DNA from: Cellulomonas sp. ACRRI
GTDB taxonomy: Bacteria; Actinomycetota; Actinomycetes; Actinomycetales; Cellulomonadaceae
NCBI RefSeq assembly: GCF_022346185.1
Contig: NZ_JAKRMS010000035.1
Span: forward strand, 1-32,649
Length of the DNA: 32,649 bases
Direction of reading: 5' to 3'
Below, piece by piece: positions 4,911 to 22,371 of this stretch (its first letter is position 1; each line of letters opens with the position of its first letter). The notes beneath the pieces are model-generated. The model made no database searches, was not told the DNA's origin, and worked only from the letters and a program-made list of their open reading frames with translations. Position numbers and translations under genes: made by a program.

Positions 4911-5300
4911 TCAACGACCCTGGTCGCGCCGCTTGTCCCAGCGGTCCTCCATGCGTGACATGAAACCCTTCTTGGCCTTGGGAGCCGCAGGGCGCGGTGC
5001 GGTGCTGCCGTCGGGCCGCACGACGCCGACCGGCCCGCCACCGTGGCGCGGGCGCGTGAACGCGATCGCGACGGAGGCGAACATGACGACGAAGCCCAGC
5101 ACACCCAGCCACACCTGCGACTGCGCGGCACCCACCACCAGCAGCAGCAGCCCCAGGACGGCACCGATGCCGCCCAGGACGTACCGCAGGACCGGCTTGC
5201 GTCCACGCGATGTCAGCGTGTTCGCGAGCCGGGGATCATCAGACGTGAGCTGACGCTCCATCTGCTCCAGTACACGTTGTTCGTACTCGGAGAGAGGCAT
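4911..5300 (-). CDS. DUF3040 small membrane protein
   Basis: This 129-residue protein begins MPLSEYEQRVLEQMERQL, the signature of the actinobacterial DUF3040 family. Two adjacent membrane helices follow at about residues 40-58 and 63-81 (VLGGIGAVLGLLLLVVGAA and WLGVLGFVVMFASVAIAF). The tail is basic and Pro/Ala-rich with a cluster of Lys, Arg and Asp at the end, probably cytoplasmic. The ATG at 5300 gives the conserved start, although the upstream sequence has only a G-rich stretch and no strong ribosome binding site. It is read in the same direction as dinB upstream, with a 37-base gap, so it may be cotranscribed. No function is established for the family. Confidence 0.9.
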   Translation of the reverse strand: MPLSEYEQRVLEQMERQLTSDDPRLANTLTSRGRKPVLRYVLGGIGAVLGLLLLVVGAAQSQVWLGVLGFVVMFASVAIAFTRPRHGGGPVGVVRPDGSTAPRPAAPKAKKGFMSRMEDRWDKRRDQGR

Positions 5301-5337
5301 TCCAACCCCCGTGCTCCGCCGTCGGGACTACTTCACC

Positions 5338-6645
5338 TCAGGATAGATGGCCGTCGGCCAACTCGGTAGTCGAGCGCTCCCCCGCAGCGGGTGACCCTGC
5401 CGACACCTCGCGCGCGGACCGCCCCACCGCGGGGGTCCCGGCGCCGATCGCCGCACGCCCGAACCGCGCGCGCACCAGGTCCATGGCGCGCTCGGCGTCC
5501 CGCCGCGCGTCGGGGTTCGACGCGGCGGCCTCGTCGAGGGTCGGCTGGCGGACGACCTCCGCGGCCGGCACCAGACCCTCCGCCCGGACCCCGACGAGCC
5601 GCACCGGGAGTCCGCCCAGGTCCGCCGCGGCGAGCAGGTCGCGGGCCACCAGGTACAGCTCGCGGCCCACGTCGGTCGGCTGCGGCAGCGTCCGGGACCG
5701 GGTGAGCGTCCGGAAGTCCGAGGTGCGCACCTTCACCGCGACGGTGCGGGCGACCAGCCGCTGCGCGCGGAGCCGGCCGGCGCACCGGTCCGCCAGCTCG
5801 AGCGCCTTGCTCTCGACCACCCGCATGTCCCGGACGTCGACGGCGAACGTCTCCTCCGCGCCGACGCTCTTCTCCTCGCGGCCCGGCGTGACCGGCCGCG
5901 GGTCCCGCCCCCAGGCGAGGTCGTGCAGGTGCGCGCCCGCGACCTTGCCGACGGCGCGCTGCACGACGGACACGTCGCTGTCGGCGAGCTCGGCGACGGT
6001 GCGGATGCCCCAGCGCTCGAGCGCGGCGGCGGTCCGCTCCCCGACCCCCCACAGCGCGCCGACCGGCAGCACCCGGAGGAAGTCGAGGGTGGCGGCCCGC
6101 GGCACCAGCAGCACCCCGTCGGGCTTGGCGTGCCCGGAGGCGAGCTTGGCGACGAACTTCGTGGCACCGATGCCGACGGAGCAGGTGATGCCGTGCCGGG
6201 CCTGGACCCGCTCGCGGATGAGCGCCGCGATCCGGGTGGGGCTGCCGAGCCGGCGCCGGGCGCCGCTGACGTCGAGGAAGGCCTCGTCCACGCTCACCTG
6301 CTCGACGAGGGAGGTGACGTCGTGCAGCACCTCCATGACGCTGCGCGACACCTCCGTGTAGGCGGCGTGGTCCGGCGGGACGACGATCGCCTGCGGGCAC
6401 ATCCGCAGCGCCACGGCCATCGGCATCGCCGAGTGCACGCCGAACGCGCGCGCCTCGTACGTCGCGGCGAGCACCACGGAGCGCTCGGAGCCGCCGACGA
6501 TCACGGGCTTCCCGCGCAGGTGCGGCCGCCGTGCCAGCTCCACGGAGGCGAAGAACGCGTCCATGTCGACGTGCAGGATCGAGCAGCCGTCCTCCTCGGC
6601 GCCCCAGTCGCGCTTCGCGTCCTGCGACCGCGGGCCGCGGCTCAT
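5338..6645 (-). CDS. dinB: DNA polymerase IV (Y-family translesion polymerase)
   Basis: This 435-residue error-prone polymerase bypasses damaged template bases. The palm carries HVDMDAFFASVE with catalytic Asp27 and a likely steric-gate Phe32, the YEARAFGV motif near residues 63-70, and SVDEAFLD with Asp120-Glu121. The helix-hairpin-helix thumb (VGIGATKFVAKLAS) and a little-finger domain follow, so the protein looks complete and active. The N terminus has about 20 extra residues before the conserved core. The start ATG at 6645 overlaps the stop of the upstream HEPN gene (ATGA), so the two are translationally coupled. Both sit behind a LexA box at 7114-7129, so DNA damage should induce the polymerase. 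No obvious beta-clamp peptide was recognised at the C terminus. Confidence 0.95.
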   Translation of the reverse strand: MSRGPRSQDAKRDWGAEEDGCSILHVDMDAFFASVELARRPHLRGKPVIVGGSERSVVLAATYEARAFGVHSAMPMAVALRMCPQAIVVPPDHAAYTEVSRSVMEVLHDVTSLVEQVSVDEAFLDVSGARRRLGSPTRIAALIRERVQARHGITCSVGIGATKFVAKLASGHAKPDGVLLVPRAATLDFLRVLPVGALWGVGERTAAALERWGIRTVAELADSDVSVVQRAVGKVAGAHLHDLAWGRDPRPVTPGREEKSVGAEETFAVDVRDMRVVESKALELADRCAGRLRAQRLVARTVAVKVRTSDFRTLTRSRTLPQPTDVGRELYLVARDLLAAADLGGLPVRLVGVRAEGLVPAAEVVRQPTLDEAAASNPDARRDAERAMDLVRARFGRAAIGAGTPAVGRSAREVSAGSPAAGERSTTELADGHLS

Positions 6646-7082
6646 CCGGCCCGCGCCGCCTCGACCTCGGCCGCCGCGCTCTCCAGCTCGGCGCGGACCA
6701 GGTCCAGGAAGTCCTCGGCGTGGCACAGCACCTGCTCGGCGCGCTCGGCGGAGACCGCGTCGAACCGCCCCGCGTCGACGGCCGCGCGCAGCCCGGCGCC
6801 GGCGGCGAAGTACCCGGACCACCGGCTCATCTCCGGGGCGACCCGGTCGAGCAGCTCCCACACCGTGCGCGGGCCGCGGCGCGCGGACAGCGGCTGCCGC
6901 TCGGCGAGCACGGCCGCGCCGGCCCGGAGCGCGGCGAGGTGCGCGTGGGTGAACTGCTCCCAGGGCTCGGAGGAGAACTGGGCCGCGACCAGCTCGGCGT
7001 CGGCACGCTGCAGCAGCTCGGCCGTGCGGCCCGACAGCCCGGGCGCCGCACTCCGCAGGGCACGAAGGGTCTTGACCGGCAT
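6642..7082 (-). CDS. SAV_6107-type HEPN-domain protein, SOS-controlled partner of dinB
   Basis: This 146-residue, mostly helical protein resembles the actinobacterial SAV_6107 HEPN family: WEQFTHAHLAALRAGAAVLAER, then a central RRGPRTVWELLDRVAPEMSRWSGYF-like helix, then ERAEQVLCHAEDFLD. The last segment contains R114-x6-H121, matching the R-x4-6-H motif of ribonuclease-type HEPN domains, although the polar residue usually after Arg is Ala here. The start ATG at 7082 has GGGAGG eight bases upstream. The stop overlaps the dinB start by four bases. The gene is first in an operon behind a -35/-10 promoter with a LexA box between the elements. Its role is unknown: it could be a damage-induced ribonuclease, a polymerase accessory factor, or a non-catalytic scaffold. 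Confidence 0.75.
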   Translation of the reverse strand: MPVKTLRALRSAAPGLSGRTAELLQRADAELVAAQFSSEPWEQFTHAHLAALRAGAAVLAERQPLSARRGPRTVWELLDRVAPEMSRWSGYFAAGAGLRAAVDAGRFDAVSAERAEQVLCHAEDFLDLVRAELESAAAEVEAARAG

Positions 7083-7109
7083 CGCGCACCTCCCTCTCTC
7101 GACTGCTCC

Positions 7110-7138
7110 AGTATCGAACACCTGTTCGAACGCGTCAA
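7110..7138 (-). promoter_or_regulatory. SOS promoter of the HEPN-dinB operon
   Basis: On the minus strand, -35 TTGACG (7133-7138) and -10 GATACT (7110-7115) are separated by 17 bases. The expected transcript start is near 7103, about 20 bases before the HEPN ATG. The LexA box at 7114-7129 fills the spacer and touches the -10, a direct steric-block arrangement. Confidence 0.7.
7114..7129. promoter_or_regulatory. LexA-binding SOS box
   Basis: TCGAACACCTGTTCGA is a textbook actinobacterial SOS box (TCGAAC-N4-GTTCGA) with perfect arms. It sits inside the HEPN-dinB promoter. It also overlaps the region where a -35 for the divergent methyltransferase gene would lie, so both directions could be repressed. 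Confidence 0.9.
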
Positions 7139-7142
7139 CCCG

Positions 7143-7148
7143 TACGGT
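7143..7148 (+). promoter_or_regulatory. -10 element of the divergent methyltransferase gene, leaderless
   Basis: TACGGT lies six bases before the ATG at 7155, so transcription should begin at or next to the start codon. The LexA box ends 14 bases upstream. Confidence 0.45.
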
Positions 7149-7154
7149 GGCCGG

Positions 7155-8138
7155 ATGGCGTCCCGTGGCCGGTCCGGCCGAACCAGCAGGTCGGACAGGA
7201 CCGTCGGGGGCCGGCGACCTGCTCCAGAGTCCCACCGGCCACCGACACGCGGCCGCGGGACGGGGTCGGGCGGCCCGCAGGCCTGGCCGGACGGACCCGT
7301 CCCGATCGCCACCGGGACCGCCGAGGTCCTGCGCTCCCCCGACGACCCGGACGCCGTGACCCTGCTGGTGAACGGGGTGCCGAGCTCGCACCTCGACCTC
7401 GGCGACCCCGAGCGCCTCGACTTCGAGTACATGCAGCAGATCGCGGCGGTGCTGGACCACCTGCCGACCGCGGACGGCCCGTTCCGCGCGGTCCACCTGG
7501 GCGCCGCGGGCTGCGCGCTGGCGCGGTGGGGGCACGCGCGGTTCCCGGGCGCCCGGCAGATCGCCGTCGACCTCGACCCGGTGCTGGTGGCCCTCGTGCG
7601 CGACTGGTTCGACCTCCCCCGGTCCCCGGCGCTGCGCCTGCGGGCGGGCGAGGCGCGCGCGGAGCTCGGCACGCTCCCGGACGCCAGCGCGGACGCGGTC
7701 GTGCGCGACGTGTTCGCCGGCGACCGCACGCCCCCGCACGTGACCACCGAGGAGTTCGTCCGGGACGTCGCCCGCGTGCTGCGGCCCGGCGGCGTGTACC
7801 TCGCGAACTGCGCCGACCGCCCGCCGCTCGCCCTCGCGCGCGCCGAGGCCGCGACGCTCGGTGCCGTGTTCCGGCACGTGGGCGTCGTCGCCGAGCCCGC
7901 CGTGCTGCGCGGGCGGCGGTACGGGAACCTCGTGCTCGCCGGCACGGACGACCCGGCGCTGCTGGCGGACGCCGGGCTGGCGCGCGACCTGCGGTCCCTG
8001 CCCGTGCCGGCGCGGCTCCTCGTCGACGAGGACCTCACGGCGTTCGTCGGCCGCGCCGCGCCGTTGCGCGACGCCGCGCCGGAGCTGGTGCCGGAGGCCG
8101 GTGCCGACCGCGAGCCGGAGCCCCTCCCGCCGGCCTGA
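7155..8138 (+). CDS. Spermidine-synthase-like class I SAM methyltransferase
   Basis: This 327-residue protein has a Rossmann-type nucleotide-binding core: VHLGAAGCALARW at residues 113-125, IAVDLDPVLVALVRDWF in the acidic-loop position, then SADAVVRDVFAGDRTPPHVTTEEF and VLRPGGVYLANCAD. This pattern is that of spermidine-synthase-like proteins common in actinobacteria. I do not see the aspartate motif (DSSDP-like) needed for true aminopropyl transfer, so polyamine synthesis is doubtful. The first ~50 residues are Arg/Pro/Gly-rich and probably disordered. The ATG at 7155 follows a TACGGT -10 by six bases, indicating a leaderless message. It shares a 72-bp gap and one LexA box with the HEPN-dinB operon. 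The substrate is unknown. Confidence 0.75.
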   Translation: MASRGRSGRTSRSDRTVGGRRPAPESHRPPTRGRGTGSGGPQAWPDGPVPIATGTAEVLRSPDDPDAVTLLVNGVPSSHLDLGDPERLDFEYMQQIAAVLDHLPTADGPFRAVHLGAAGCALARWGHARFPGARQIAVDLDPVLVALVRDWFDLPRSPALRLRAGEARAELGTLPDASADAVVRDVFAGDRTPPHVTTEEFVRDVARVLRPGGVYLANCADRPPLALARAEAATLGAVFRHVGVVAEPAVLRGRRYGNLVLAGTDDPALLADAGLARDLRSLPVPARLLVDEDLTAFVGRAAPLRDAAPELVPEAGADREPEPLPPA

Positions 8139-21410: not shown

Positions 21411-21426
21411 TCGAACACCTGTTCGT
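21411..21426. promoter_or_regulatory. LexA box A of the LysM/lexA region
   Basis: TCGAACACCTGTTCGT differs from the perfect dinB-operon box (7114-7129) only at the last base. It lies 38 bases upstream of the LysM start. Confidence 0.8.
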
Positions 21427-21442
21427 TCGAACGCTTGTACGA
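21427..21442. promoter_or_regulatory. LexA box B, directly abutting box A
   Basis: TCGAACGCTTGTACGA has a perfect left arm and one change in the right arm. It begins the base after box A ends, so two LexA dimers would sit side by side. Confidence 0.65.
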
Positions 21443-21477
21443 TGGAACCACACCCCACCGGCGATGTCGAGACACGA

Positions 21478-21493
21478 TCGAACAGGTGTTTGA
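21478..21493. promoter_or_regulatory. LexA box C overlapping the lexA -35
   Basis: TCGAACAGGTGTTTGA has one change in the right arm. Its last four bases are the first four bases of the lexA -35 (21490-21495), so binding would give autorepression. Confidence 0.75.
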
Positions 21494-21627: not shown

Positions 21628-22371
21628 ATGGCGAGCGACGGGACGGGCACCGCGGCGGGCCTCGGCGAGGCGGCCGTGGCCGAGCTCGGGGACGGCGACG
21701 GCCTCACGCCGCGGCAGCGGCTGGTCCTCGAGACGGTGCGCGCGTCGGTCGAGTCCCGCGGCTACCCGCCGAGCATGCGCGAGATCGGCGACGCCGTGGG
21801 CCTCACCAGCCCGTCGAGCGTCAAGCACCAGCTCACGGCGCTCGAGCGCAAGGGCTACCTGCGCCGCGACCCGAACCGCCCGCGCGCGATCGAGGTGGTG
21901 CAGCCCGACGACTCGCGCGGCGTGGCGCCGCTCGCGGGCGTCGCGGGGATCACCGGCATCGGCGACGCGGACTCCGCCCCCCGCGAGGGCGCCCCGGAGG
22001 CGGCCTACGTGCCCGTGGTCGGCCGGATCGCCGCCGGCGGTCCGATCCTCGCCGAGCAGCTCGTCGAGGACGTGTTCCCGCTCCCCCGCCAGCTGGTGGG
22101 TGCCGGCGAGCTGTTCCTGCTCAAGGTCGTGGGCGACTCGATGATCGACGCCGCGATCTGCGACGGCGACTGGGTCGTGGTCCGCCGGCAGCCGGTGGCC
22201 GAGAACGGCGAGATCGTCGCCGCGATGCTCGACGGCGAGGCGACGGTGAAGACGCTCAAGCGCGCGGACGGGCACGTGTGGCTGCTGCCGCAGAACCCGG
22301 CGTACTCCCCGATCGACGGCGACCACGCGCAGGTGCTGGGCCGCGTCGTCTCGGTGCTGCGCTCGCTCTGA
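21628..22371 (+). CDS. lexA: LexA repressor, SOS regulator
   Basis: This 247-residue self-cleaving repressor has a winged-helix DNA-binding domain at about residues 26-92 ([34 protein letters not shown], with the [16 protein letters not shown] recognition region). The autocleavage bond is Ala136-Gly137 (RIAAGGP) and the catalytic dyad is Ser171 (VVGDSMID) with Lys208 (ATVKTLKR). All key residues are present. The N terminus has a ~25-residue acidic/Gly-rich extension typical of actinobacterial LexA. The ATG at 21628 follows GGGAG by five bases. It is divergent from the LysM gene, with three LexA boxes in between, and should also control the HEPN-dinB operon at 7114. Confidence 0.96.

Follow-up and report, generated by a model that had tools for sequence, protein, structure and literature searches.

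The window analysed here, a stretch of 32,649 nucleotides from Cellulomonas sp. ACRRI (contig NZ_JAKRMS010000035.1, assembly GCF_022346185.1), carries a small HEPN-domain gene directly ahead of dinB, the gene for DNA polymerase IV. Both genes lie on the reverse strand. The HEPN gene (6642..7082) encodes a SAV_6107-type protein of 146 amino acids, and dinB (5338..6645) encodes a polymerase of 435 amino acids with IMS and IMS_C domains, which matches DNA polymerase IV models and has DNA polymerase IV chains as its best solved matches. The genes overlap by the four nucleotides ATGA (6642..6645), shared between the TGA stop codon of HEPN and the ATG start codon of dinB, and upstream of both lies an exact LexA (SOS) box, TCGAAC-N4-GTTCGA (7114..7129, no mismatches). 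On balance, and with little better than even confidence, the pair is read here as a reduced, Cellulomonas-type translesion operon under LexA control, in which a helical HEPN protein assists error-prone synthesis without catalytic activity of its own.

Membership of the HEPN protein in PF18726 (HEPN_SAV_6107) is clear, with a score of 104 bits (E=6.4e-30) against a curated cut-off of 27.2. Its AlphaFold2 model (mean predicted local distance difference test score, pLDDT, 89.1) has the four-helix HEPN fold, and HEPN proteins fill the top rows of a structure comparison, where the best match is AF0298 (2hsb) and solved HEPN toxins are among the neighbours. A sequence search for solved relatives gave no clear match (best E 0.16). 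Proteins of Cellulomonas hominis CS1 and Cellulomonas sp. IC4_254 are 99% identical to it.

The LexA box is embedded in the promoter shared by the two genes. A consensus scan finds TTGACG (7138..7133) and GATACT (7115..7110) separated by a 17-nucleotide spacer, a sigma-70-like arrangement on the reverse strand (7110..7138) that is the sole consensus promoter match in 5200-7400 and that occurs 0.0 times in shuffles. The box takes up the whole spacer and runs two bases into the -10 element, a position from which LexA would be predicted to block the promoter, here and in relatives, where the box is conserved; among the 29 loci listed for the window's family, 28 have TTGAC on the 5' side of the exact box, as read by eye. 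An earlier reading made from the letters of the window alone (the sequence-only reading) had described a 146-residue SAV_6107-like HEPN protein, an ATGA overlap with dinB and a perfect SOS box in a shared promoter, and each of these descriptions is borne out.

That TCGAAC-N4-GTTCGA is the motif in use is shown by the window's own lexA (21628..22371, forward strand), which is preceded by three boxes with one mismatch each (at 21411, 21427 and 21478, spanning 21411..21493) that serve as an internal motif control. Sites with up to two mismatches number nine in the window, against a mean of 0.9 in shuffles. The three boxes are packed into 83 bp, with lexA on one side and a divergent gene, LysM-like by eye, on the other; in corynebacteria divS occupies this position.

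The HEPN family extends far beyond the close relatives of the window. At E <= 0.001, PF18726 is matched in 116 of 121 genomes of the window's family, in 125 of 297 of the order and in 247 of 394 of the class, and in 36 of 396 genomes of the phylum, 26 of which exceed the curated cut-off. The sequence-only reading would have been refuted by a pairing restricted to a few close strains; distribution across family, order, class and phylum sets such confinement aside. Plasmid and phage collections contain no match to HEPN, and a mobile origin was rejected on that ground.

Gene context was compared in 142 oriented loci from 42 families, one per genome, taken as the best-scoring loci plus one or a few per family rather than at random. 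Family numbers (f1, f6 and so on) are labels from the search tool, f1 being the family of the window (31 of its 116 HEPN-bearing genomes were examined for context), and 'Streptomyces-type' and like labels are inferred from likeness to loci of named genera. Left out were G320 (f47), in which our own profile found nothing, a second HEPN copy in G631 and nine weak loci in f13, f14, f23 and f38. The second copy (L169) has a DUF6504-like open reading frame downstream rather than upstream of it and no good LexA box near. The nine loci (L022-L030), from distant members of the phylum, have weak PF18726 matches, three of them with an in-frame stop, and no match to dinB or dnaE2 nearby; they are probably a different HEPN branch.

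An error-prone polymerase gene lies downstream of HEPN in 103 of the 142 loci. dinB comes next (<400 nt) in 38, dnaE2 comes next (<700 nt) in 53, a methyltransferase gene followed by dinB in five, and dnaE2 within 5 kb in seven; the split between the two dnaE2 classes was made by BLAST pieces, and ImuB can take 'dinB' distances. The remaining loci have DUF3040 (nine), a methyltransferase gene without dinB (21, all of them f6, Streptomyces-type) or other and unknown genes (nine). Where dnaE2 is next, DUF6504 precedes HEPN in 52 of 53 loci, assigned as PF20114 for three checked in Pfam and by our own profile for the rest, and the full layout runs DUF6504-HEPN-dnaE2-(methyltransferase)-dinB-DUF3040. 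Kineosporia, Quadrisphaera, Terrabacter, Ornithinimicrobium and Enemella have DUF6504-HEPN-dnaE2; Cellulomonas, Isoptericola and Actinotalea have mostly HEPN-dinB; Streptomyces and Kitasatospora have HEPN-methyltransferase-DUF3040; and in Micromonospora- and Actinoplanes-type loci dnaE2 lies 2.5-4.2 kb downstream. A start codon that shares 1 or 4 nt with the HEPN stop codon is available in 14 of the 38 dinB-next and 10 of the 53 dnaE2-next loci, so that tight overlap is common without being universal. PF20114 matches are also present in Caulobacter.

In a FastTree phylogeny of 61 DnaEs, in which support values were not considered, the 33 dnaE2-next DnaEs included all fall in one clade, together with those of L151, L177 and L186 from the within-5-kb class; the remaining 20 share 43-74% identity with the DnaE of L064. 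This clade is sister to two other DnaE2s, one of them from a Streptomyces-type genome, and stands apart from DnaE1 and from the DnaE2 of the window's own genome. A second DnaE2 clade includes G204, G932, G810 and G869 (f8 and f106), in which an ImuB-like gene lies between HEPN and dnaE2. A broader proposal, held tentatively and at somewhat less than even confidence, is that the SOS mutagenesis machines of actinobacteria have SAV_6107 HEPN as an accessory subunit that has gone unrecognised, a motif-less HEPN fold employed as a polymerase or RecA adaptor with three polymerase modules. These are DUF6504-DnaE2-DinB, ImuB-DnaE2 of the second type, and DinB alone.

At the window locus neither DnaE2 nor ImuB is present, and the operon thus differs from SOS mutasomes that hold DnaE2 in the same operon. 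The DnaE2 of the window's genome is encoded on a different contig, where it follows an ImuB-like gene (IMS E 9.9e-14) and an exact LexA box lies upstream; this second LexA-headed locus, with the ImuB-like and DnaE2 genes, is at L195:5628-12240 (L195:12192). DUF6504 was not found in this genome. In this lineage HEPN therefore stands with dinB without the DUF6504-dnaE2 module, which was either lost or never gained. The layout LexA box-DUF6504-HEPN(SAV_6107)-dnaE2-(methyltransferase)-dinB is common in Actinomycetia, and the window would be a reduced form of it.

LexA boxes are a regular feature of these operons. With the operon head taken as DUF6504 if present and otherwise as HEPN, and with boxes sought within 500 bp upstream, 98 of the 142 loci have an exact box, and 114 have one if a single mismatch is allowed (98 and 114 of 121 without f6). 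Control windows from the same loci contain an exact box in 2 of 2187 cases and one with at most one mismatch in 13 of 2187, and no exact box arose when the 142 head regions were dinucleotide-shuffled 200 times. Exact boxes occur in 34 of the 42 families sampled and, in the window's family, at 29 of 31 loci (30 of 31 allowing one mismatch). The box sits before the first gene, that is, before DUF6504 where present and before HEPN otherwise. A separate promoter type for dnaE2 loci was considered and dropped once the box turned up before DUF6504; dnaE2-next loci have an exact box in 46 of 53 cases and at most one mismatch in 52. The absence of a box that had been suggested for Micromonospora- and Actinoplanes-type loci proved to be an artefact of the 500-bp limit and partial matches, and boxes with at most one mismatch lie further upstream in six of six (L275, L276, L278, L280, L282, L292). 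Streptomyces-type loci (for example L007, L008, L061, L062, L119 and L121) have a recurring CCGAAC-N4-GATCGA upstream of HEPN, two mismatches from the LexA box, which may be a diverged operator or another site.

Among the 103 polymerase-linked loci the box is exact in 88 and within one mismatch in 100, which, with the 38 loci that have dinB next to HEPN, answers the proposal of the sequence-only reading to count the adjacency and the boxes preceding it. These counts also bear on the possibility that HEPN is a passenger, an old gene at the locus that came to share its LexA promoter with mutasome genes put behind it, without any common function. Streptomyces-type genomes, which retain HEPN-methyltransferase-DUF3040 without box or polymerase in the flank examined, are in keeping with such a history, but the recurrence of three kinds of polymerase module behind HEPN and the breadth of families in which an exact box heads the transcript make it improbable.

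The sequence-only reading had further proposed that R114 and H121 form the catalytic pair (R-x6-H) of a ribonuclease, a claim that would depend on conservation of the motif in the family. In the alignment of 142 sequences, R114 is arginine in 30 and H121 is histidine in six; the two occur together in four, the window and three same-genus relatives, and any Rx4-6H near this helix in 21. The SAV_6107 family thus lacks the conserved R-x4-6-H of HEPN ribonucleases, and the proposed pair is rejected on the alignment. In agreement, the table of PMC3710099 gives 'No' for SAV_6107 in the column 'Conservation of Rx4-6H'. The residues that are conserved, namely R53 (142/142), W75 (100%), P83 (99%), F125 (98%), W88 (97%), R99 (96%), F92 (96%) and H48 (129/142), resemble a structural or binding set more than a nuclease site.

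HEPN could instead be a ribonuclease or RNA-binding arm of the damage response that works through residues other than the classical motif. The fold and the solved toxins among its structural neighbours accord with this, as does the proximity of H48 and R53 on helix 2 of the model. According to the relevant passages of PMC3710099, AF0298, the best structural match, lacks the motif histidine and has an alternative conserved histidine, some HEPN families may use such an alternative, and unfused motif-less HEPN domains can be RNA-binding or toxic. The scarcity of the motif in the alignment and the 'No' entered for SAV_6107 speak against a ribonuclease, H48 is tyrosine in three Mycobacteriales-type rows, and no MNT antitoxin gene lies beside the window HEPN, whose neighbours are dinB, a DUF3040-like gene and a spermidine-synthase-like gene (the other open reading frames of the window were not scanned for MNT). 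An RNA-directed role through other residues is consequently judged quite improbable. It gains a little weight, at the cost of the accessory reading, from the group to which AF0298 belongs, for which another active site has been proposed; ribonuclease activity of SAV_6107 HEPN is, on its residues, unlikely, with an alternative histidine a possibility in some HEPN families (PMC3710099). The PADLOC candidate-defence model PDC-M05B weakly matches four of eight HEPN members scanned (best 2e-6) and does not match the window protein.

Induction of the window operon by DNA damage would be expected by analogy with cg2381 of Corynebacterium glutamicum, a laboratory organism and a species that matches PF18726. 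In a Corynebacterium-like genome the gene order is HEPN-DUF3040-mraZ-rsmH, with a polyprenyl synthetase on the other side, and cg2378 is mraZ (PMC5055667); given this order, cg2381 is the probable orthologue of the window HEPN. cg2384 and idsA are named in the same papers as cg2381, as listings. In PMC5055667, cg2381 is a conserved hypothetical protein, named as a LexA-regulon gene after a 2009 LexA-regulon paper; an hour into ciprofloxacin treatment it is up by log2 3.86, the value also given for recA, while mraZ falls. The best box upstream of HEPN in the Corynebacterium-like genome has two mismatches.

Several observations weigh against HEPN as an accessory of a polymerase. The strongest against a strict HEPN-DinB partnership comes from Cellulomonas loci L222, L227, L228 and L232, which are without adjacent dinB yet keep HEPN and the exact box, so that HEPN may have an SOS role of its own. 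Y-family polymerases other than ImuB found in these genomes are 40-45% identical to the window DinB, and the adjacent dinB products of three other named loci are 68-98% identical to it. Sediminihabitans luteus lacks both dinB at its HEPN locus and the box. In three f105 genomes HEPN has one-mismatch boxes, but the 12.9 kb downstream of it contain neither dinB nor dnaE2; two Acrocarpospora loci give the same picture over 6 kb. The 21 f6 loci show neither a box within one mismatch nor a polymerase (flank ~1.4 kb in 17 and 7.6-7.9 kb in four), and the same holds for 14 named Streptomyces/Kitasatospora-type loci over ~6 kb. DUF6504 also exists without HEPN: many f113 genomes have it, none of them among the 247 HEPN carriers of the class. 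The RNA-binding or toxic capacity of some motif-less HEPN domains, cited above, points the same way, and the link between HEPN and a polymerase, physical or genetic, is a putative one drawn from gene context.

Such loci bring into view another explanation, in which HEPN is an SOS effector in its own right and polymerases are no more than fellow passengers on its LexA-controlled transcripts; given the nearby dcw cluster, it might for instance act as a damage checkpoint for division or the envelope. The box outlasts the polymerases, both in the dinB-less Cellulomonas and where HEPN stands alone; the Corynebacterium-like genome places HEPN ahead of DUF3040-mraZ-rsmH, although with no box better than two mismatches; and DUF3040 lies downstream in most contexts. 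This explanation has to accommodate an error-prone polymerase, of any of three kinds, behind HEPN in 103 of 142 loci, and the opposite responses of mraZ and cg2381 to ciprofloxacin. It is regarded as unlikely, though with enough in its favour to be taken seriously.

In the accessory reading, LexA would occupy the HEPN-dinB promoter until damage activates RecA, upon which LexA would be cleaved and HEPN and DinB made together; box and promoter are present in the sequence, and cleavage and induction are presumed. Translation of dinB may be coupled to that of HEPN through the ATGA overlap. HEPN would then most likely contact the polymerase, RecA or the clamp by means of its conserved arginine- and tryptophan-rich residues, in the manner proposed for UmuD' or YolD, small partner proteins of other Y-family polymerases. 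Of what the sequence-only reading had proposed, LexA control, the co-transcription layout with DinB and the link to an error-prone polymerase have support from the sequence, the last extending to DnaE2, while the R114-x6-H121 catalytic pair has none. The tail of the window DinB contains RQPTLDE, a possible clamp motif. The tail stretch AERAMDLVRARFGRAAI resembles by eye the N-terminus of the genome's own RecA, EKALEAALSQIDRQFGKGSI, and tails of this kind are seen by eye on DinBs of related HEPN operons too; this likeness would make a DinB-RecA complex a plausible docking partner for HEPN. Motifs of the RecA-N-terminus-like kind are described for RecA-binding Y-family polymerases in the pertinent section of PMC6511836.

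Two further genes flank the operon. The next gene downstream (4911..5300, reverse strand) is DUF3040-like, with 36% identity over 96 columns to an open reading frame scoring PF11239, and DUF3040 is a recurring downstream neighbour in relatives. Divergent to HEPN is a spermidine-synthase-like gene (7155..8138, forward strand; 3gjy match, 1.2e-52), whose start lies 26 nt from the LexA box. Since the same divergent pair recurs in f1, f84, f85 and f86 and the start is this close, the box may also control the spermidine-synthase-like gene as a shared operator.

Actinobacteria under stress acquire mutations through SOS mutagenesis, a process for which the list of subunits is still incomplete. The HEPN gene, conserved, under LexA control and lying inside mutasome operons, is a candidate for a missing subunit and is directly testable; the word 'HEPN' is absent from the main texts of two polymerase surveys (PMC6511836 and PMC12926913), as it is from the text of the S. 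venezuelae LexA table (PMC9380542). The same table records a LexA-controlled pair of a hypothetical protein and Pol IV on the S. venezuelae plasmid pSVJI1. PMC3710099 is the only literature found to name SAV_6107, none was found to name DUF6504, and among the matches listed for HEPN with translesion synthesis or DinB, or for HEPN domain with LexA, none concerns the SAV_6107 family.

By profile and fold, the window protein is a clear member of HEPN-M (SAV_6107) as defined in PMC3710099, where SAV_6107 is named once, in Table 1, and both its architecture and its operons are entered as '-'; the present analysis adds the LexA control and the linkage to mutasomes. With MNT-HEPN toxin-antitoxin pairs the protein shares the HEPN fold; it differs in having no MNT gene beside it, no conserved motif, a presence in nearly all genomes of its family (116/121) and no plasmid or phage match. 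The YolD/YqjX-YqjW and UmuD'-UmuC systems resemble the window in that a small SOS-induced protein is encoded with a Y-family polymerase (as treated in part of PMC6511836), but YolD and UmuD' are beta-barrel partners, whereas SAV_6107 HEPN is predicted to be all-helical. The ImuA-ImuB-DnaE2 SOS mutasome has in common a LexA-headed error-prone module, and a locus of this ImuB-like/DnaE2 type is present elsewhere in the window's genome; in f8 and f106, HEPN lies just upstream of an ImuB-like-DnaE2 cassette. No ImuA turned up in any of the searches. There is likeness, too, to the putative DnaE2B-ImuB-C(-PolY-RecA) mutasomes of Actinobacteria, with Tessaracoccus lapidicaptus and Arthrobacter alpinus as examples, described in the section of PMC12926913 that reports DnaE2 with standalone ImuB-C in the same phylum: a small standalone protein, DnaE2 and DinB share one operon, and the DnaE2, as in the HEPN operons, belongs to a clade sister to Streptomyces-type DnaE2. 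DUF6504 may be ImuB-C, and the HEPN-linked DnaE2 may be DnaE2B; in a profile comparison, DUF6504 and ImuB-C align at E 0.073 (hhalign). Compared with those mutasomes, HEPN between DUF6504 and dnaE2 is extra, and these operons would appear to be of a mutasome type already known, in which the HEPN component has so far gone unrecognised and is the new part.

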